Source of the DNA: Sulfurovum sp.
Lineage (GTDB): Bacteria > Campylobacterota > Campylobacteria > Campylobacterales > Sulfurovaceae
Length of the DNA stretch: 64,000 nt
Direction: 5' to 3'
NCBI GenBank assembly: GCA_027082955.1
Contig: JALWTA010000017.1
Location: 1-64,000, forward strand
Shown here: piece after piece, positions 366-35,482 of the stretch
Layout: the number at the start of each line of letters is the position of its first letter
Numbering within the stretch: the first letter of the stretch is position 1
Notes under the pieces: model-generated
Database searches by the model: none
Told to the model about the DNA's origin: nothing
Seen by the model: only the letters and a program-made list of their open reading frames with translations
Position numbers and translations under genes: made by a program

Positions 366-449
366 GGAGATTGAAATTAAAAATTAAATAGGGGAAAATT
401 AAAAAGTTTTCCTCTTACTTTAATTTCTAATTTCTAATTTCTAATTTCC
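366..449. repeat. Heptamer-array element, AT-rich copy
   Basis: The right arm has about four tandem copies of AATTTCT (419-448). The left arm holds degenerate inverted copies (GAAATTA, AAAATTA) around 371-400. It fills the gap between two minus-strand genes and begins beside the Shine-Dalgarno of the 73-aa gene. It lacks the GGTATGC hairpin of fuller copies, so membership in the family rests on the 7-bp period and the inverted arrangement. Confidence 0.55.
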
Positions 450-752: not shown

Positions 753-758
753 TATAAT
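753..758 (+). promoter_or_regulatory. Putative -10 box (TATAAT)
   Basis: A perfect TATAAT follows a T-rich stretch (TTGTTTGTTTTC), the usual Campylobacterota sigma-70 pattern with a weak -35. It lies upstream of the array element and is probably the uvrB promoter, with the element inserted into the leader. Confidence 0.55.
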
Positions 759-765
759 AGCGAAA

Positions 766-1210
766 GAATTAGGAATTAGGAATTAGGAATTAGGAATTTT
801 GATGAAAAAAGAGAATATTCTGCATACAAAAAGCTATCAGTTTGCTATCAGAATCGTCAATCTGTCACTTTATTTAAATAAAGAAAAAAAAGAATACATC
901 TTAAGCAAACAAGTATTAAGATCGGGTACTTCTATAGGTGCTTTGGTCAGTGAGTCCAAATATGCACAATCAAAAGCTGACTTTCTCAATAAACTGATGA
1001 TTTCACTGAAAGAAGCAAATGAAACACAATACTGGATCAACCTTCTATATGATACACATTTTATTACACCACAAATGCACCAAAGTCTTTTTAGTGACAT
1101 TGATGAAATCATCAGCCTTTTAAGCGCTATAACCAAAACCATCAAAAATCAAAGCATTACAACGTAATGCATACCATCATTCCTAATTCCTCATTCCTAA
1201 CTCCTGATTT
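766..1210 (+). mobile_element. Heptamer-array element carrying a four-helix-bundle gene
   Basis: The left arm (766-797) has four to five copies of GGAATTA. The middle is a complete four-helix-bundle gene. Overlapping its 3' end is the hairpin GCATTAC-AAC-GTAATGC (1154-1170), followed by ATACC and a right arm of inverted heptamers (TTCCTAA, TTCCTCA, TTCCTAA; about 1178-1207). Other loci have the same hairpin as GCATTGC/GCAATGC, so the stem changed in a compensatory way. It lies between a promoter and uvrB. The layout resembles 23S rRNA intervening sequences (an ORF between inverted repeats), but here it is intergenic. Mobility is inferred. Confidence 0.65.
802..1167 (+). CDS. Four-helix-bundle protein (23S-IVS / Avd-like)
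   Basis: This 121-residue all-helical protein carries the family signature RSGTSIGALVSESKYAQSK, then FLNKLMISLKEANETQYW. It belongs to the four-helix-bundle family encoded in 23S rRNA intervening sequences and related to Avd of diversity-generating retroelements; those proteins form pentameric nucleic-acid-binding barrels, but the role of stand-alone members is unclear. I chose ATG 802 because AGGAA inside the heptamer array lies 5 nt upstream; an in-frame TTG at 799 is also possible. The stop codon falls inside the right-end hairpin. A close paralogue lies at 32438-32791, in the same kind of element. Confidence 0.85.
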   Translation: MKKENILHTKSYQFAIRIVNLSLYLNKEKKEYILSKQVLRSGTSIGALVSESKYAQSKADFLNKLMISLKEANETQYWINLLYDTHFITPQMHQSLFSDIDEIISLLSAITKTIKNQSITT

Positions 1211-3199: not shown

Positions 3200-3209
3200 C
3201 TTTTTTAAT

Positions 3210-3378
3210 GAAGAGTTAAGAGTGAAGAGTGAAGAGTTTTGGTATGCTTTCTTTACAGAAAGCTTTTATTATTTATTCGAAGATGTAAGGATATTATGAT
3301 GACCCTCTTACCAACACTAAAAGCATTGCAAAGCAATGCAAACCACCACTCTTCACTCTTCACTCTTCACTCTTCACT
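3210..3378. repeat. Heptamer-array element, non-coding, complete
   Basis: This is the clearest complete non-coding copy. Left array 3210-3236 (GAAGAGT units), TTTTGGTATGC, hairpin GCTTTCT-TTAC-AGAAAGC (3246-3263), TTTTAT; about 60 bp of spacer; then AAAGCATTGCAAAGCAATGC (hairpin 3323-3339) and a right array of inverted units (CTCTTCA, 3348-3378). Both outer junctions have inverted duplications: ATTAAAAAA (3185-3193, end of uvrB) is repeated inverted at 3201-3209, and the first bases of ppk are repeated inverted at 3379-3393. Confidence 0.75.
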
Positions 3379-3413
3379 AAATCTACCATTTGGAGCGACC
3401 AAATGGTAGATTT
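3379..3413 (+). promoter_or_regulatory. Hairpin enclosing the ppk ribosome-binding site
   Basis: AAATCTACCATTTGG (3379-3393) pairs perfectly over 15 bp with CCAAATGGTAGATTT (3399-3413), leaving the 5-nt loop AGCGA. The only plausible Shine-Dalgarno of ppk (GGAG, 3392-3395) lies at the stem top and loop, and the ATG (3403-3405) is in the 3' strand. The structure could repress ppk translation unless opened; the pairing is seen, the regulatory effect is inferred. Confidence 0.6.
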
Positions 3414-6015: not shown

Positions 6016-6102
6016 ACAGGTAGCAGGTAGCAGGTAGCAGGTAGCAGGTAGCAGGTAGCAGGTAGCAGGTAGCAGGTAGCAGGTAGCAGGTAGCAGGTAG
6101 CA
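6016..6102. repeat. Tandem array of CAGGTAG, about 12 copies
   Basis: A nearly perfect 7-bp tandem repeat starts at the stop codon of the upstream gene and runs for about 86 bp. It resembles one arm of the heptamer-array elements, but I find no inverted partner or GGTATGC hairpin after it. Its regularity makes copy-number variation between strains likely. Confidence 0.85.
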
Positions 6103-6352: not shown

Positions 6353-7003
6353 ATGAACAAAATCATCACCAAAAGCTTCAAAGACCTCTTTTCCGCCACC
6401 GTTCTGGCATTCATCGCCAAAACCACCCTCATCTCACTGGTACTGACCGCTGCCATCGCATGGCTCTTTGGCAGTACTGTCTCTTCTTTTGTCAAACACT
6501 ATCTGACATGGATTCCGTGGGAGTGGGTACAGACTACCGGCGCATCCGTAGCAGTCATTGCCGTTGCCTATATGCTCTTTGTCGCCATTCATACCGTTGT
6601 CACCTCTTTCATGGTCGAACCGCTGCTGGCAAAACTGGCACAACAACACTACCCAAATTCACCAGTTGTCGGTACACCGAGCATTACAGCATCCCTGCTT
6701 GTAAGCCTTCGCTCAGCCGCTGTATTTCTTTTCGTGTTCCTCTTTACCTTCCCGCTGATGTTCGTACCGCTGCTTGGGGCGGTCTATATGCTCTGGCTCT
6801 GGTCTATTCTTATCAAAGCACCGACTATCTATGATGTAGGCAGTATGTTCATCGCAGATAAAAAAACCCTCAAAGCACGCAGCAGCAAAACCACCCTCCT
6901 TGCCATGATCGCCGCTGGGTTTAACTACATTCCACTGCTCAATATCTTTTCTCCTGTGTTTGCGCAGATTCTGTTTTTGCATAGGATTGTGGGAGAGGAG
7001 TAG
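6353..7003 (+). CDS. EI24-domain inner-membrane protein
   Basis: The 216-residue membrane protein has about four to five hydrophobic segments (near 18-45, 60-85, 120-155 and 185-205). It fits the EI24/CysZ-like family, whose CysZ members are linked to sulfate uptake; nothing here proves that activity. A typical mark is the amphipathic stretch VTSFMVEPLLAKLAQQHYP between membrane segments. The start has AAGGA about 8 nt upstream. It is preceded by REP-like palindromes and its stop codon (TAG) is part of a GTAGGAA heptamer array, so both flanks are repeats. Confidence 0.75.
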   Translation: MNKIITKSFKDLFSATVLAFIAKTTLISLVLTAAIAWLFGSTVSSFVKHYLTWIPWEWVQTTGASVAVIAVAYMLFVAIHTVVTSFMVEPLLAKLAQQHYPNSPVVGTPSITASLLVSLRSAAVFLFVFLFTFPLMFVPLLGAVYMLWLWSILIKAPTIYDVGSMFIADKKTLKARSSKTTLLAMIAAGFNYIPLLNIFSPVFAQILFLHRIVGEE

Positions 7004-7150
7004 GAAGTAGGAAGTAGGAAGTAGGAATGATAACAATGTATGAGCCTATGTCAACCTTAACAAAAATATCTTTTCAAGCCCCCATGCAATAAAAGCATTG
7101 CACAGCAATGCATACCAAAACTCCTACCTACTACCTCCTACCTCCTCACT
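6996..7150. repeat. Heptamer-array element between convergent genes
   Basis: Left array of GTAGGAA units (6996-7028) overlaps the end of the EI24 gene. The right part has ATAAAAGCATTGC-ACA-GCAATGC (hairpin 7095-7111), ATACCAAAA and inverted units (CTCCTAC, CTACCTC). The left GGTATGC hairpin is missing. The right array encodes the last residues of the exonuclease gene on the minus strand. Confidence 0.7.
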
Positions 7151-8518: not shown

Positions 8519-8682
8519 AGTGAAGAGTGAAGAGTGAAGAGTGAAGAGTTTTGGTTTGTTTTTCTTACGAAAAACTTCTATTTTAATATGTTTCATATTT
8601 TCTCCTATCTATAATATAAAAGCATTGCACAGCAATGCATACCGACACTATTCACTATTAGTTATTCACTCTTCACTTCAAA
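8516..8682. repeat. Heptamer-array element between rpe and trpF
   Basis: Left array of GTGAAGA units (8518-8549), TTTTGGTTTG, hairpin GTTTTTC-TTAC-GAAAAAC (8558-8575), CTTCTATTTT; spacer; ATAAAAGCATTGC-ACA-GCAATGC (8622-8638), ATACC and degenerate inverted units (TTCACTA, CTTCACT). The outer right junction is the palindrome AAGAGGCG-AT-CGCCTCTT (8681-8698) within the end of rpe. The rpe stop codon is in the right array. Confidence 0.72.
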
Positions 8683-9742: not shown

Positions 9743-10873
9743 ATGACCTCCATAGACAAATTCAAAAAGTTTCTCGGATGGAGAAGCGCACCTAAACCGC
9801 ATATCACCCTCAATGACGAATACTATTCGCACCTAGCACCATTTAGACTTCCATTTATCCTAACTGTTCTCATGATGCTCATTGGGACAATTGGTTACAT
9901 GGTTATTGACCATTTCCCTCTCATGGATGCTATTTACCAGACAGGAATCACATTCACAACTGTCGGTTTCGGAGAAATACGCCCTATTTCGGATATGGGA
10001 CGTATCTTTACCATCACTCTGATCATTTTCGGCTTTATTGTGTTCTCTATTGCCGTAGGGATCATCGCAGAAGTTGTCAAAAAGGGTGAATTCCAAAAAA
10101 CTGCCAAGGAACGGAAAATGCTTTATGAAATAGCCCGGCTGAAACACCACTTTGTTGTCTGTTACCACAATGAATTTACCGTGCAAGTAACCAAACAGCT
10201 CCGCACCAACCATATTCCTTTCGTTGTCGTCGATCCAAGCGAAGACCTTGAAGAGATCGCAAAGAAATACAAATATCCCTACTTTGTCTCTGCCGAACCG
10301 CATACTGAAGAGGGAATTTTGAAATCCCACCTCTCCTCTGCAAAAGGTATCATTACCCTTGCAGACAATGTTGCGGACAACATTGCCACCATCGCATCTG
10401 CACGCCTGTATGAAGGGGAAATAGGACGTATGCGGAAATATCTCATCATCGCCAATGCCAAAAGTTATGAAGATGAAACCAAACTGCTCAAACTCGGTGC
10501 TGACAAAGTGGTAACAGCCACCAAACTCATGGCACAACGTATCAATGCTATGGCTGCACGTCCAGATATGGAGAACCTGCTGCAGGAGTTCCTCTACAAA
10601 AAAGATACACCGCTTGATATGGAGGAGGCAAAAGTTTCCAAAACCTCATGGCTGACACTCAAACAGATCAAAGCGGCACGTTTCCGTGACATTGCCAATG
10701 TGACCATCATTGGTATACGCCAAAAAGACGGCAAGTTCATTCCTATGCCCAAAGGAGATACAATTGTGATGCCTGAATCCAAACTGCTCCTTATTGGTAC
10801 CAGTGATGGTATACGCAAAGCCAAAAAGATCATTCGCAAAAAAGAGAAGCCTGAAGAGCTGAAATACATCTGA
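9743..10873 (+). CDS. Two-TM potassium channel with RCK domain
   Basis: The 376-residue protein has a first membrane helix near 32-53, a pore loop with the selectivity filter TVGFGE (near 73-78), a second helix near 88-112, then a cytoplasmic RCK_N region (near 130-260) and an RCK_C/TrkA_C region (near 295-365). It resembles MthK/Kch-type channels gated by cytoplasmic ligands. The Gly-rich Rossmann loop normally found at the start of RCK_N is replaced by VVCYHNEF, so NAD(H) binding looks lost. The Shine-Dalgarno AGGAGAG lies 17 nt from the ATG and is partly in a small GAGAG/CTCTC hairpin. Confidence 0.9.
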   Translation: MTSIDKFKKFLGWRSAPKPHITLNDEYYSHLAPFRLPFILTVLMMLIGTIGYMVIDHFPLMDAIYQTGITFTTVGFGEIRPISDMGRIFTITLIIFGFIVFSIAVGIIAEVVKKGEFQKTAKERKMLYEIARLKHHFVVCYHNEFTVQVTKQLRTNHIPFVVVDPSEDLEEIAKKYKYPYFVSAEPHTEEGILKSHLSSAKGIITLADNVADNIATIASARLYEGEIGRMRKYLIIANAKSYEDETKLLKLGADKVVTATKLMAQRINAMAARPDMENLLQEFLYKKDTPLDMEEAKVSKTSWLTLKQIKAARFRDIANVTIIGIRQKDGKFIPMPKGDTIVMPESKLLLIGTSDGIRKAKKIIRKKEKPEELKYI

Positions 10874-10875
10874 TT

Positions 10876-11049
10876 AGTGAATAGTTTTGGTATGCCTGTG
10901 ACACTGCGTGTCAAGTGGAGAGTTAAGAGTGAATAGTGAATAGTTTTGGTATGCCTGTGACACTGCGTGTCAAGTGGAGAGTTAAGAGTGAATAGTGAAT
11001 AGTTTTGGTATGCTTTTCATTTGAAATGAAAAGCTTTTATAAATAAAAG
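10876..11049 (+). repeat. Triplicated left end of the heptamer-array element
   Basis: A 59-bp unit repeats: TTTTGGTATGC occurs with AGTTTTGG starting at 10883, 10942 and 11001. The first two copies carry the hairpin TGACAC-TGC-GTGTCA; the third has an 11-bp palindrome arm, GCTTTTCATTT/AAATGAAAAGC (11012-11034), then GCTTTTAT. The junction CTTTTAT-AA-ATAAAAG (11034-11049) includes the argJ Shine-Dalgarno AAAAGG. No right end is visible, so this is a partial, tandemly amplified copy. Confidence 0.75.
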
Positions 11050-29360: not shown

Positions 29361-29556
29361 GAAGCGCTGAGTGTTGAGCGTTGAGTACTGAGAGATTTTA
29401 ACTCACAACCAATATTGTGCTAAAATCACAAAAACATACTATCAAAGAGCAGACAATGAATACCCCATCAATAAAAGCATTGCAAAGCAATGCATACCAT
29501 AACCCTTCACTCTTCACTCTTCACTCTTCACTAACAAAGCAAGACCTTGCTTTGTT
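29361..29556. repeat. Heptamer-array element at the mraY-murD junction
   Basis: A GTTGAGC/GAGTGTT array (29361-29394) follows mraY. ATAAAAGCATTGCAAAGC (hairpin 29477-29493), ATACC and an inverted array (CTTCACT units, 29503-29532) lie inside the murD reading frame. The outer junction is AACAAAGCAA-GACC-TTGCTTTGTT (29533-29556), an inverted duplication of the native murD start region. The left array matches not this right array but the one at 29792-29824, so two insertions may overlap here. Confidence 0.7.
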
Positions 29557-31106: not shown

Positions 31107-32435
31107 ATGTCAAAAAAACTCCACCTTGTCAGCCTCGGCTGCACCAAAAACCTCGTTGACTCCGAAGTGATGCTCGGCAGACTTCAGGAGTACGAGATCA
31201 CCGACGACAACACCGAAGCGGATGTCATTATCGTCAACACCTGTGGCTTTATCGATGCTGCCAAAGAGGAGAGTATCAATACTGTCCTAAACCTCCACGA
31301 TGAACGGAAAAAAGACTCTGTACTGGTCATGGCAGGATGCCTCTCGGAGCGCTACAAAGAGGAGCTGATGCAGGAGCTTCCAGAGATCGACATCTTCACC
31401 GGTGTAGGCGACTACGAAAAGATCGATGCGCTTATCGCCAAAAAGCAGAGTACCTTCTCCCCGGAAGTCTATCTCGCTACCGAAGAGAGTGGCAGGGTCA
31501 TCACAGGATCGAACTACCATGCCTACATCAAGATCGCTGAGGGCTGCAACCAGCAGTGCAGCTTCTGTGCGATCCCAAGTTTCAAGGGCAAACTCCATTC
31601 TCGTAGCCTCGAGTCGATCGTCAAAGAGGTGCGTATGCTGGCGGAGAGGGGTTTCTATGACTTCTCTTTCATCTCACAGGACAGCTCCAGCTACGGACGC
31701 GATATAGGGCTCAAAGACGGTCTGCGTGACCTCATCAAAGCAGTTGAATCCATCGATGGTGTCAAAAGTGCGCGTATCCTCTACCTCTATCCAAGTACGA
31801 CAAGTTTTGCACTCATCGATGATATCGCCGACTCCAAGATCTTTCAAACCTACTACGATATGCCCATCCAGCACATCGATGACTGTGTCCTCAAGACGAT
31901 GAAGCGGGGCTTTGGAGAAGAGAAGACCATCGCCCTGCTTGAACATATGAAGAGTAAACCTGATGCCTTCATCCGTACCTCTGTCATCGCCGGGCATCCT
32001 GGAGAGAGTGAAGAGAGCTTTGCCAAACTTTGTGACTTCATGGAAAACTTCGGCTTTGACCGCTTCAATGTCTTCGCCTACTCCAACGAAGAGACAACAG
32101 CTGCCTACACCATGGAGCAGCTGCCGCCAGAAGTGATCGAAAGCAGAGCCCAGATCCTGGGCAAAATCGCAGAAAAGACCACAAAAACCTCGCTTGAAAA
32201 GATGGTCGGCAAAACCGTTACCCTCGTCATCGACGGCGAAAGCGACGAACACGAGTTCCTCCTCTCCGCACGTCCGCTGCAATGGGCAGTAGACATCGAC
32301 GGAGAAGTGCTTGTCAACGATACCAACGACCTTCCTGTGGTGTATGGTAAGCTGTATAAGGCAAAGATCACTGAGTTGATAGGTAATCAATTGCTTGCCA
32401 CCCTGATTAGTGAGGAAGTAGGAAGTAGGAAGTAG
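31107..32435 (+). CDS. rimO: Ribosomal protein uS12 methylthiotransferase
   Basis: RimO is a radical-SAM enzyme that methylthiolates an Asp of ribosomal protein S12. The 442 residues comprise the MTTase domain (HLVSLGCTKNLVDSEVMLG, with Cys ligands also in NTCGFIDAAKEES and AGCLSERY), the radical-SAM motif EGCNQQCSFCAIPSFKG, and a C-terminal TRAM domain. LGCTKNLVDSE distinguishes it from MiaB. The final residues EEVGSRK are encoded by a GTAGGAA array, so the native C-terminus was probably shorter. The four-helix-bundle gene starts 3 nt after the stop. Confidence 0.96.
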   Translation: MSKKLHLVSLGCTKNLVDSEVMLGRLQEYEITDDNTEADVIIVNTCGFIDAAKEESINTVLNLHDERKKDSVLVMAGCLSERYKEELMQELPEIDIFTGVGDYEKIDALIAKKQSTFSPEVYLATEESGRVITGSNYHAYIKIAEGCNQQCSFCAIPSFKGKLHSRSLESIVKEVRMLAERGFYDFSFISQDSSSYGRDIGLKDGLRDLIKAVESIDGVKSARILYLYPSTTSFALIDDIADSKIFQTYYDMPIQHIDDCVLKTMKRGFGEEKTIALLEHMKSKPDAFIRTSVIAGHPGESEESFAKLCDFMENFGFDRFNVFAYSNEETTAAYTMEQLPPEVIESRAQILGKIAEKTTKTSLEKMVGKTVTLVIDGESDEHEFLLSARPLQWAVDIDGEVLVNDTNDLPVVYGKLYKAKITELIGNQLLATLISEEVGSRK

Positions 32436-32834
32436 GAGTGAAAGAGAGTGTTTTATTGGAAAAGAGTTTGGCTTTTGCATTACGTATTATCAAACTCTCT
32501 CGTTATCTACAACAAGAGCATAAAGAGTATATTTTATCTAAACAGGTAGTCCGTAGCGGAACAGCTATTGGAGCACTCATTCGAGAAGCACAATACGCAC
32601 AATCTAAGGCAGATTTTCTTAGCAAACTTACTATTGCACTTAAAGAAGCCAATGAAACAAAATATTGGCTAACAATATTGGTAGAATCATCATATATTAC
32701 GCAAACGATGTATCAAAGTATTGAACCTGATGCTGAAGAACTCCTAAAACTGCTTATTGCAAGTACAAAAACATTAAAACAAGGGGAGTAGTCCATGCTC
32801 ACACTCCTACCTCCTACCTCCTACCTCCTACCTA
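32411..32834 (+). mobile_element. Second heptamer-array element with a four-helix-bundle gene
   Basis: Left array of GTAGGAA units (32411-32440), a complete four-helix-bundle gene, then an inverted array (CTCCTAC, CTCCTAC, CTCCTAC; 32800-32834). The GCATTGC hairpin of other copies is not seen. The element joins rimO and tilS into one run: its left array encodes the RimO tail, and its right array encodes the TilS N-terminus. Mobility is inferred from the shared architecture with 766-1210. Confidence 0.65.
32438..32791 (+). CDS. Four-helix-bundle protein, second copy
   Basis: This 117-residue protein is closely similar to the one at 802-1167: both have KEYILSKQV, RSGT-IGAL, YAQSKADFL and LKEANET-YW in the same order. 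It belongs to the 23S-IVS/Avd-like four-helix-bundle family. The start is a GTG (32438) inside the heptamer array, with AGGA from the array 7 nt before it. Its last codons (AAGGGGAG) form the Shine-Dalgarno of tilS, which starts 3 nt after its stop, so tilS translation depends on the element. Confidence 0.85.
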   Translation: MKESVLLEKSLAFALRIIKLSRYLQQEHKEYILSKQVVRSGTAIGALIREAQYAQSKADFLSKLTIALKEANETKYWLTILVESSYITQTMYQSIEPDAEELLKLLIASTKTLKQGE

Positions 32835-34003: not shown

Positions 34004-34842
34004 TCGCTTCCTTTAGCCAACGGATGCGCCTTCATATACTCCTGCATCTTCTTCACACTTCCAAGCTTGGTATAAACTTGTGTCGTTGCCATTGTTTCAT
34101 GCCCAAGCAGCTCACTCACATCAGCAATGCGCGCACCGTGGTTGAGCAGATGGGTAGCAAAGGAGTGGCGCAGTTGGTGCGGGGTGGCTTTAATGCCGTG
34201 TGTCTTGAAACATTTTGTCAGTTTATAACGCAACTGCGCGGCATTGAGCGGCGCATTCCCTTTTTCAAAGAGATACGTTTTGGGCACTGCCTGTGCGAGA
34301 TAGACTTGCAAAAGATCCCGAAGAGAAGGAAGCAATGGCAATTGACGCACTTTATTCCCTTTTCCGTGTATCTCGACCCAGCCGTTTTTGATATCGGAAA
34401 GTTTCAGTGTGCTAAGTTCCGATATACGCAACCCAAGCCCATAAAGCATTGAAATCAGCAACTGCTCCTCAATAGTTGCATCGGAAAGCACCTCATCAAT
34501 GTAGGTCTCTTCTATAGGTTTGGGAAGGTTTTGGGGTACTTTGATGGACTCATCGGAGACCACACGTACCGACAGATGGCACTGATCTTCGAGATATTTG
34601 ACAAAAGAACGCACCGCAGAGAGCTTCTTGACAATGGTCTTTTTGCTGTTTTTGACAATCTTGAAACGAAAAGGGGTCAGATCAAGTACCCATCCTCCCT
34701 CCTCTTCATAAAAAGAGGCAGAGGCTACCATCTGCCCAAGTGCAATCTCATACGTCTCTACCGTTGCCTCCGAATACCCCCGCACATCCAGCAGATACGC
34801 CAAAAAATCATCTATCTGTTCCTTGATCTCTTCACTCTTCAC
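33994..34842 (-). CDS. Xer-type tyrosine recombinase
   Basis: The 282-residue recombinase has an N-terminal SAM-like DNA-binding domain (FLAYLLDVRGYSEATVETYE) and a catalytic domain with Arg in GLGLRISELSTL, HxLRH in HQLRHSFATHL, the second His in ELLGHETM and the nucleophile Tyr in TTQVYTKLG. Size and layout fit XerC/XerD/XerH, which resolve chromosome dimers; no phage genes are near, so a housekeeping role is likelier than an integrase. The start is a GTG (34840-34842) inside a GTGAAGA array, and the last residues come from another array, so both ends are repeat-derived. Confidence 0.88.
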   Translation of the reverse strand: MKSEEIKEQIDDFLAYLLDVRGYSEATVETYEIALGQMVASASFYEEEGGWVLDLTPFRFKIVKNSKKTIVKKLSAVRSFVKYLEDQCHLSVRVVSDESIKVPQNLPKPIEETYIDEVLSDATIEEQLLISMLYGLGLRISELSTLKLSDIKNGWVEIHGKGNKVRQLPLLPSLRDLLQVYLAQAVPKTYLFEKGNAPLNAAQLRYKLTKCFKTHGIKATPHQLRHSFATHLLNHGARIADVSELLGHETMATTQVYTKLGSVKKMQEYMKAHPLAKGSDER

Positions 34843-34856
34843 TCTTCACTCTTCAC
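34827..34856. repeat. Single heptamer array at the Xer gene start
   Basis: Four units of CTCTTCA (minus strand TGAAGAG) fill the 13-bp gap between the acyltransferase stop and the Xer start and run into both genes. Each minus-strand unit has GTG with GAAGAG before it, so the array supplies both start codon and Shine-Dalgarno-like sequence. Confidence 0.7.
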
Positions 34857-35482
34857 TACATAAGCGTGTGTTCAAGCATCTTCTCTCTGAGGTATGCTCT
34901 TGCTTCATCAATCTCCATTCCCTCTACCGAAACGATCTTGATATAAAAATCAAGTGTAGCAAAAGGTTTTGGGATCACAAACGCATCCCAACTGCCAAGC
35001 TTCCAGTATGAAGAAGGGATATAATTAACCGCCATAATAGGGGCATTGGCTTTCATCGCAAGTGCAAGAGCACCCTGACTGATCTCATGTCTTGGACCTC
35101 TGGGACCATCGGGAGTGACCAGCAGATCATCTCCCTTTTTGAGTGCACGAAAGGCTTCGAGCAGTACCTGCTTGGCGCCCTTACTGCTTGATCCACGCAG
35201 TGGCACAATATGGAAAAACCCAAGTATCCGTGCAATAATCTCTCCATCAAAATGGCGGGAGATAATCCCGGAGGCTGCCTGTGTACGATGCAGGTGACGA
35301 TATGCCTGCGGAGAGCAGAGCAGTTCACCATGCCAGCAGACAACAATATGCTGTTTTTGAGTAACGGTACCCTCGATATGAAAATGTTTTTTTGACGTGT
35401 ACCAGTAAAAACGCATCAGCATATAGCCAAGCGGCGGTAAAACAACCGCTCCAATACGCCGAAACAAAAGTTTTTTGTTCAT
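34856..35482 (-). CDS. Lysophospholipid acyltransferase-like protein (DUF374)
   Basis: The 208-residue protein has an N-terminal hydrophobic helix and the DUF374/LPLAT pattern: [12 protein letters not shown] (in place of the HxxxxD box), [20 protein letters not shown] and the phosphate-binding [13 protein letters not shown]. It probably acylates a lipid or lipid A-like substrate at the inner membrane. ATGA overlap with miaB indicates co-translation. The order HP0268 family - miaB - DUF374 matches H. pylori HP0268-HP0270 as I recall it. Confidence 0.85.

Follow-up and report, generated by a model that had tools for sequence, protein, structure and literature searches.

Intervening sequences (IVSs) in the 23S rRNA genes of Coxiella burnetii and Leptospira are ~400-430 nt long and carry a PF05635 open reading frame (ORF) between terminal inverted repeats that form a long stem. 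The Coxiella IVS is described in PMC4990558 as a selfish element with a 28-bp terminal stem. GACAGAT heptamers, whose number varies by strain, lie upstream of its S23p ORF, and cleavage by RNase III in vitro is reported in the same paper. Genes of the same family (23S_rRNA_IVP) are also found within cas loci; Zhang et al. 2013 (PMC3936711) regarded them as having cas-associated functions. Intergenic tandem repeats of 7 nt, often in inverted pairs, are likewise on record: GGGAATC in Xanthomonas, with 70 inverted pairs in X. campestris, GGGGA(C/T)T in Nostoc (PMC4692102), TAACTGA in Beggiatoaceae (PMC4679880) and the cyanobacterial STRR. The accounts of these heptamers that we draw on tie them to no gene.

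The window analysed here, a 64,000-nt stretch of a Sulfurovum sp. genome, contains two genes of this family. We conclude that the first of them belongs, in all probability, to one copy of an IVS-like mobile element of ~400 bp, whose family resides chiefly not in rRNA but in transcribed gene junctions, and whose two arms are kept complementary by concerted change. A preliminary description of the window had placed the four-helix-bundle (4HB) gene at 802-1167 between inverted arrays, with its end inside a hairpin of non-coding copies, and the coordinates and scores obtained here agree. Element 1 (766-1209) occupies the uvrB leader, downstream of the uvrB promoter, and is built as follows:

753-765, forward strand: TATAATAGCGAAA, the -10 region of the uvrB promoter; element 1 begins directly 3' of it
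766-798, forward strand: left heptamer array of element 1, perfect (GAATTAG)4.7
802-1167, forward strand: 4HB gene of element 1, ATG at 802, stop at 1167, 121 aa, PF05635 / TIGR02436
1154-1176, forward strand: 3' hairpin GCATTACAACGTAATGC (1154-1170) followed by ATACCA, common to non-coding copies
1177-1209, forward strand: right array of element 1, imperfect, inverse complement of the left array

A TATAATAGCGAAA-like box is present upstream of uvrB in congeners both with and without the element. The stop of the 802-1167 ORF falls within the GCATTAC-AAC-GTAATGC hairpin, the right array gives 79-89% matches in TRF, and the element as RNA (760-1215) is predicted to fold with z = -6.7. Element 2 (32413-32833) sits at the miaB-tilS junction and is likewise framed, as the same description had held:

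32413-32437, forward strand: left array of element 2, (AGGAAGT)3.6, which gives the upstream miaB-like gene its stop
32438-32791, forward strand: second 4HB gene, GTG start, 117 aa, PF05635 / TIGR02436
32804-32833, forward strand: right array of element 2, (CTCCTAC)4.3, read as an N-terminal extension of the tilS-like ORF

With one array serving as the stop of the miaB-like gene and the other as the start of the tilS-like protein, insertion of element 2 reshapes the protein ends of both neighbours. The N-terminus of the tilS-like ORF, read from 32795-32833, is MLTLLPPTSYLLP... Smith-Waterman alignment of the upstream flank with the reverse-complemented downstream flank scored 47 for element 1 and 43 for element 2. 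The maxima were 29 in shuffles and 25 in 107 other ORFs, so the framing of the two window genes is not due to chance. Exact three-copy arrays numbered 10 at period 7 in the window and zero at periods 5, 6, 8, 9 and 10 and in shuffles.

The window elements share tandem heptamers near an S23 ORF with the Coxiella IVS as described in PMC4990558. In contrast to IVSs, they lie in the uvrB leader and the miaB-tilS junction rather than in a 23S rRNA helix, and their unit varies by locus. Since the protein, the stem and the heptamers match but the location differs, and an RNase III step is presumed by analogy, we call them IVS-like rather than IVSs. Rfam gave no match at L004, L006 and L007, hence no rRNA, group II intron or other catalytic RNA at these loci; the single rRNA case was L152, where a PF05635 gene with heptamer arms CGGAATACAGATTACAG lies within a 23S rRNA gene (Rfam LSU).

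The proteins encoded at 802-1167 and 32438-32791 score 87.9 and 91.6 bits against PF05635 (23S_rRNA_IVP), and 95.4 and 100.2 bits against TIGR02436 (cut-off 24). AlphaFold predicts four helices for the 802-1167 protein (pLDDT 94.9). Among solved structures, the predicted fold matches 2RLD, an S23-family protein of Bacteroides, at TM 0.90 and Xcc0516 (2GSC) at TM 0.73. Against Avd (4DWL) the TM is about 0.73 at 12% identity, so that the suggested kinship with Avd holds as a distant one, through a four-helix bundle of the Avd fold. At fixed sites the 4HB dN/dS is about 0.06-0.27, although from few unsaturated pairs, indicating purifying selection and hence that the protein does something. We recognised no nuclease, transposase, recombinase or reverse transcriptase (RT) domain in the element, and no PADLOC model for anti-phage defence matched the 4HB protein. 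Searches with the 4HB protein found no relative in viral contigs and one distant match in phages.

To quantify framing, we aligned the upstream 220 nt of each gene to the reverse complement of its downstream flank, with thresholds of at least 28 in the genus and at least 25 in other phyla. Inverse arrays, with differing units, are visible by eye around each of the eight PF05635 genes of the source genome. Across the genus, 60 of 71 4HB loci (84.5%) scored at least 28, with a median of 37, compared to none of the 107 non-4HB ORFs at those loci (maximum 25; Mann-Whitney p 1e-27). Among Campylobacterota outside the genus, a score of 25 was reached at 21 of 28 4HB loci and at one of ten controls. 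The survey of Campylobacterota that had been suggested thus bears out the arrays, and homologues that regularly lack them at conserved positions were not seen. In other phyla 63 of 83 4HB loci scored at least 25 versus none of 33 control ORFs (p 5e-12). This sample covered Bacteroidota, SAR324, Cloacimonadota, Nitrospirota, Desulfobacterota, Bacillota, Acidobacteriota, Planctomycetota, Patescibacteria, Elusimicrobiota, Verrucomicrobiota, Gammaproteobacteria and others; its loci were selected by similarity to one 4HB subfamily, and the rate is that of the sample rather than of the whole Pfam family. About 15% of the genus loci and 24% of the sampled other-phylum loci fell below threshold. These counts confirm that framing of 4HB genes is general across many phyla.

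The repeat unit varies from locus to locus, and the left array matches the right within each. For 74 loci the gene's own downstream arm ranked best among 182 candidates. A cross-locus null was exceeded at its 99th percentile by only seven genus loci; it is inflated by the similar units of different loci, and for this reason non-4HB ORFs and permutations served as controls. Of 132 framed loci, 109 had a dominant period of 7 or 14, and 14 had one of 8. C is scarce in the upstream arm (7.6%), as is G, correspondingly, in the downstream arm. In 61 congeners, the count of a common array pattern tracked 4HB copy number (Spearman 0.76) and reached at most five in 4HB-free genomes, the census consisting of 400-kb samples plus the count of one common pattern. 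Microsatellite expansion by polymerase slippage, with pairing around 4HB genes as a secondary matter, would fit the attribution of bacterial heptamer over-representation to slippage discussed in PMC4692102, as well as the two-unit difference between near-identical plasmids. It is nevertheless hardly credible as the whole explanation, given that mirror-image arrays occur at one protein family, that none of 140 control ORFs (genus and other-phylum) is alike, and that arrays track 4HB copy number.

At fixed sites, change in one arm is matched in the other. In the uvrB leader the unit is GGAATTA, GAAATTA or AAAATTA depending on the species, with both arms alike (permutation p < 5e-5). At miaB-tilS there are three array types, AGGAAGT-like, GTGAGCA-like and AATGAGA-like, each present in both arms (permutation p 0.0003). 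This covariation indicates that pairing is kept while the sequence drifts. Repeated insertion at the miaB site is a less likely alternative. The miaB-tilS 4HB proteins cluster across species and not with the other copies of their own genome, although several forks are weakly supported. In one pair of near-identical plasmids (L196 and L246), the left arm differs by exactly two units (14 nt), a recent change in unit number.

Congeners carry 0-11 4HB copies, some of them split or with stops. Empty sites, which the preliminary description had proposed looking for in close strains, were found at miaB-tilS, at uvrB and on cyanobacterial plasmids. The miaB-tilS junction is filled (~420-450 nt) in 10 of the 30 species examined and empty (49-53 nt) in five, and some other species have the right-hand array alone. 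Directly after TATAATAGCGAAA, the uvrB leader is filled or empty by species, and congener G047 has a gene-less remnant there. Cyanobacterial plasmids in which a given site is filled in one and empty in another are about 88-98% identical:

Site A: among conjugation genes, flanks 97-98% identical, filled and empty
Site B: adjoining an integrase gene, ~90% identical, filled and empty
Site C: between cmr2 and cmr3, 88% identical, filled; PCC 7002 and Synechocystis relatives empty
Site D: between cas6 and cas4, 98.9% identical, filled and empty; junction sequence otherwise different
Sites E, F and G: further plasmid pairs, filled and empty

Compared with the empty PCC 7002 and Synechocystis relatives, the site C element appears to have been gained. 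Three plasmid elements are 78-81% identical over ~418 nt, with unrelated flanks. Occupied and empty sites and kindred copies in unrelated flanks, the general marks of a mobile element, are thus both present as judged from sequence comparison. Target sequence was lost at sites C, E and G, from a few nucleotides up to ~40 nt. Relatives at site A include a remnant (L247) and a gene-less hairpin (L255), so that loss besides gain is likely and empty plasmids may reflect precise loss. The 4HB insertions in CRISPR operons are at L197 2977-3345 (cas6-cas4) and L200 2977-3333 (cmr2-cmr3). They belong to the same protein family as the cas-locus genes of PMC3936711, but are array-framed and absent from related loci; the earlier cas-associated 23S_rRNA_IVP genes, as that paper presents them, may be such insertions.

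The uvrB and miaB elements are old and were mostly inherited vertically. This history, with the purifying selection on the protein, means that they may have a host role. One could go further and see a small gene that benefits the host, its paired arrays forming an RNA structure that selection conserves, whether as a terminator or for mRNA stability or translation coupling, rather than the ends of a mobile element. The low dN/dS, the long vertical retention at uvrB and miaB-tilS, the sense orientation and the left array, which closes all three reading frames in 55% of cases versus 20% of shuffles, would accord with such a gene. We consider it improbable all the same, as the sites vary by genome and phylum (cas, cmr, ribonucleotide reductase and plasmid transfer operons, 23S rRNA), the copies are patchy and broken, with filled and empty pairs, similarity across sites is confined to the element, and gene-less hairpins are dispersed in the same genomes.

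These gene-less copies and lone arrays are represented in the window by the following features:

371-448, forward strand: short gene-less array hairpin, right arm (TAATTTC)4
3209-3378, forward strand: non-coding MITE-like copy made of array, TGGTATGC-hairpin, AAAAGC-hairpin-AAACCA and inverse array
6017-6102, forward strand: lone CAGGTAG array, perfect, 12.3 copies, partner array absent nearby
6999-7146, forward strand: non-coding copy with arms (AGTAGGA)n and (CTCCTAC)n
8519-8549, forward strand: left-type array (AGTGAAG)4.4 followed by TTTTGGTTTG
10871-11013, forward strand: left-end module of TGAATAG array, TGGTATGC and hairpin, in tandem with a 59-nt period
29460-29532, forward strand: right-end module (right-hand half-copy) with AATAAAAGC hairpin, GCATACCA and (CTTCACT)4
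34828-34857, forward strand: lone (CTCTTCA)4.3 array

Coding and non-coding copies of the genus have the same end modules: on the left an array, TGGTATGC and a small hairpin; on the right AAAAGC, a small hairpin, GCATACCA or GCAAACCA, and an array. The 3' module of element 1 (AATAAAAGC-hairpin-GCATACCA or GCAAACCA, then array) recurs at 3209-3378 and 6999-7146 and in the half-copy at 29460-29532. The first of these non-coding copies (3205-3382) has a predicted folding energy of -72.4 kcal/mol (z = -12.5). Some sites carry a gene-less hairpin in one genome and a coding copy in another, which points to internal deletion, and it is possible that gene-less copies move in trans. Together, the general framing, the empty sites, the remnants at the same sites and the plan of L152 support the proposal of an IVS-like mobile element outside rRNA with MITE-like derivatives. 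MITEs and REP sequences are also short gene-less palindromes scattered between genes, and the terminal inverted repeats, the gene-less copies and the inner ends TGGTATGC / GCATACCA common to many genus copies could suggest a non-autonomous MITE mobilised by an ordinary DDE or Y1 transposase and carrying the 4HB gene as a passenger. Here, however, the outer ends vary in sequence between copies, and neither a transposase nor a RAYT was recognised. A constant target-site duplication was absent at the compared sites, site A alone having a possible 8-nt one (GTAATWAA on both sides). Framing in many phyla would also require one shared transposase, and the 4HB gene is the sole constant gene. A passenger gene is thus very improbable.

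Of the loci with a callable gene on each side, 118 had both neighbours sense to the 4HB gene, 20 were mixed and none had both antisense. Outside this set, L199, between two ribonucleotide reductase genes, is an opposite case. The sense bias could reflect dependence on host transcription, an RNA intermediate or counter-selection of antisense insertions, and does not discriminate among the three. It bears on a retroelement copied via RNA, with an RT supplied in trans by a diversity-generating retroelement (DGR), a group II intron or the host, and with the 4HB protein as an Avd-like RNA/RT chaperone. The strong sense orientation, the fold that the modelled protein shares with Avd of DGR complexes (TM about 0.73) and a few PF05635 matches adjoining RT genes would agree with this route. 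Selection can also yield sense orientation, though, and at the window loci no RT, template or variable repeat of a DGR was recognised. No RVT_1 (PF00078) match was found in the source genome (8 copies; 95.6% complete) or in the high-copy congeners G002 (11), G016 (9) and G014 (6), and RT and 4HB presence showed no association (Fisher p 0.15). A resident RT is therefore not needed to hold many copies, and the wording "retro-copied" of the preliminary description is not upheld. RTs could have acted earlier or transiently, or lie in unassembled sequence, and we regard an RT-dependent route as unlikely. The PF05635 matches at G021:C69 (L035), G021:C312:23058 and G028:C9:32053, which lie 0.5-0.8 kb from RVT_1 genes, are probably true DGR Avd genes and offer a helpful class for contrast.

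For the IVS-like mobile element, we propose the following course. The element would be co-transcribed from a host promoter or operon, and its arms would fold the transcript, or an extruded DNA strand, into a long stem. By analogy with rRNA IVSs, RNase III would cut this stem in the RNA, with the flanking host genes still being made. The 4HB protein, whose solved relatives are oligomers, may bind the paired arms and be required for insertion or preservation of the element. Hairpin-templated copying with slippage in 7-nt steps would convert one arm to the other; such a process could account for the 7-nt periodicity as well as for the joint change of the arms, which would remain complementary while the unit drifts. 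The classic 23S rRNA IVS would then be an instance of this element that had entered an rRNA gene. As the 4HB gene is usually the core of an array-framed element across phyla, rRNA insertions look like one special case of a widespread element that has largely escaped notice.

A broader reading, which we put forward tentatively and at somewhat below even chances, is that S23/4HB elements form a bacteria-wide mobile superfamily that inserts in sense into transcribed gene junctions by a route free of RT and transposase, maintains complementary arms of 7-nt arrays through concerted evolution templated by the hairpin, is the source of most bacterial heptamers and uses rRNA as one niche. The arrays described here are tied to 4HB genes, unlike the heptamers of Xanthomonas, Nostoc and Beggiatoaceae as presented in PMC4692102 and PMC4679880, and membership of those repeats is a candidate assignment only. 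The IVS-like element would give a common origin to the S23-in-IVS plan, the over-representation of 7-nt repeats and the widespread "four helix bundle protein" annotations, and some annotations of CRISPR-associated genes or operon members may in fact denote insertions of this kind. Its co-changing arms offer a natural system for studying inverted-repeat-templated conversion, and its movement may depend on no recognised transposase or RT. Our literature search, which excluded preprints and most subscription journals, found no paper linking S23 genes outside rRNA to heptamer arrays. IVSs, cas-locus IVP genes and heptamer repeats are known separately, and joining them appears new relative to the sources cited, although priority is uncertain. 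Next to uvrB in many congeners (L038, L039, L040, L041 and L047), two opposed 4HB elements flank 4-6 kb with pilin-like genes.
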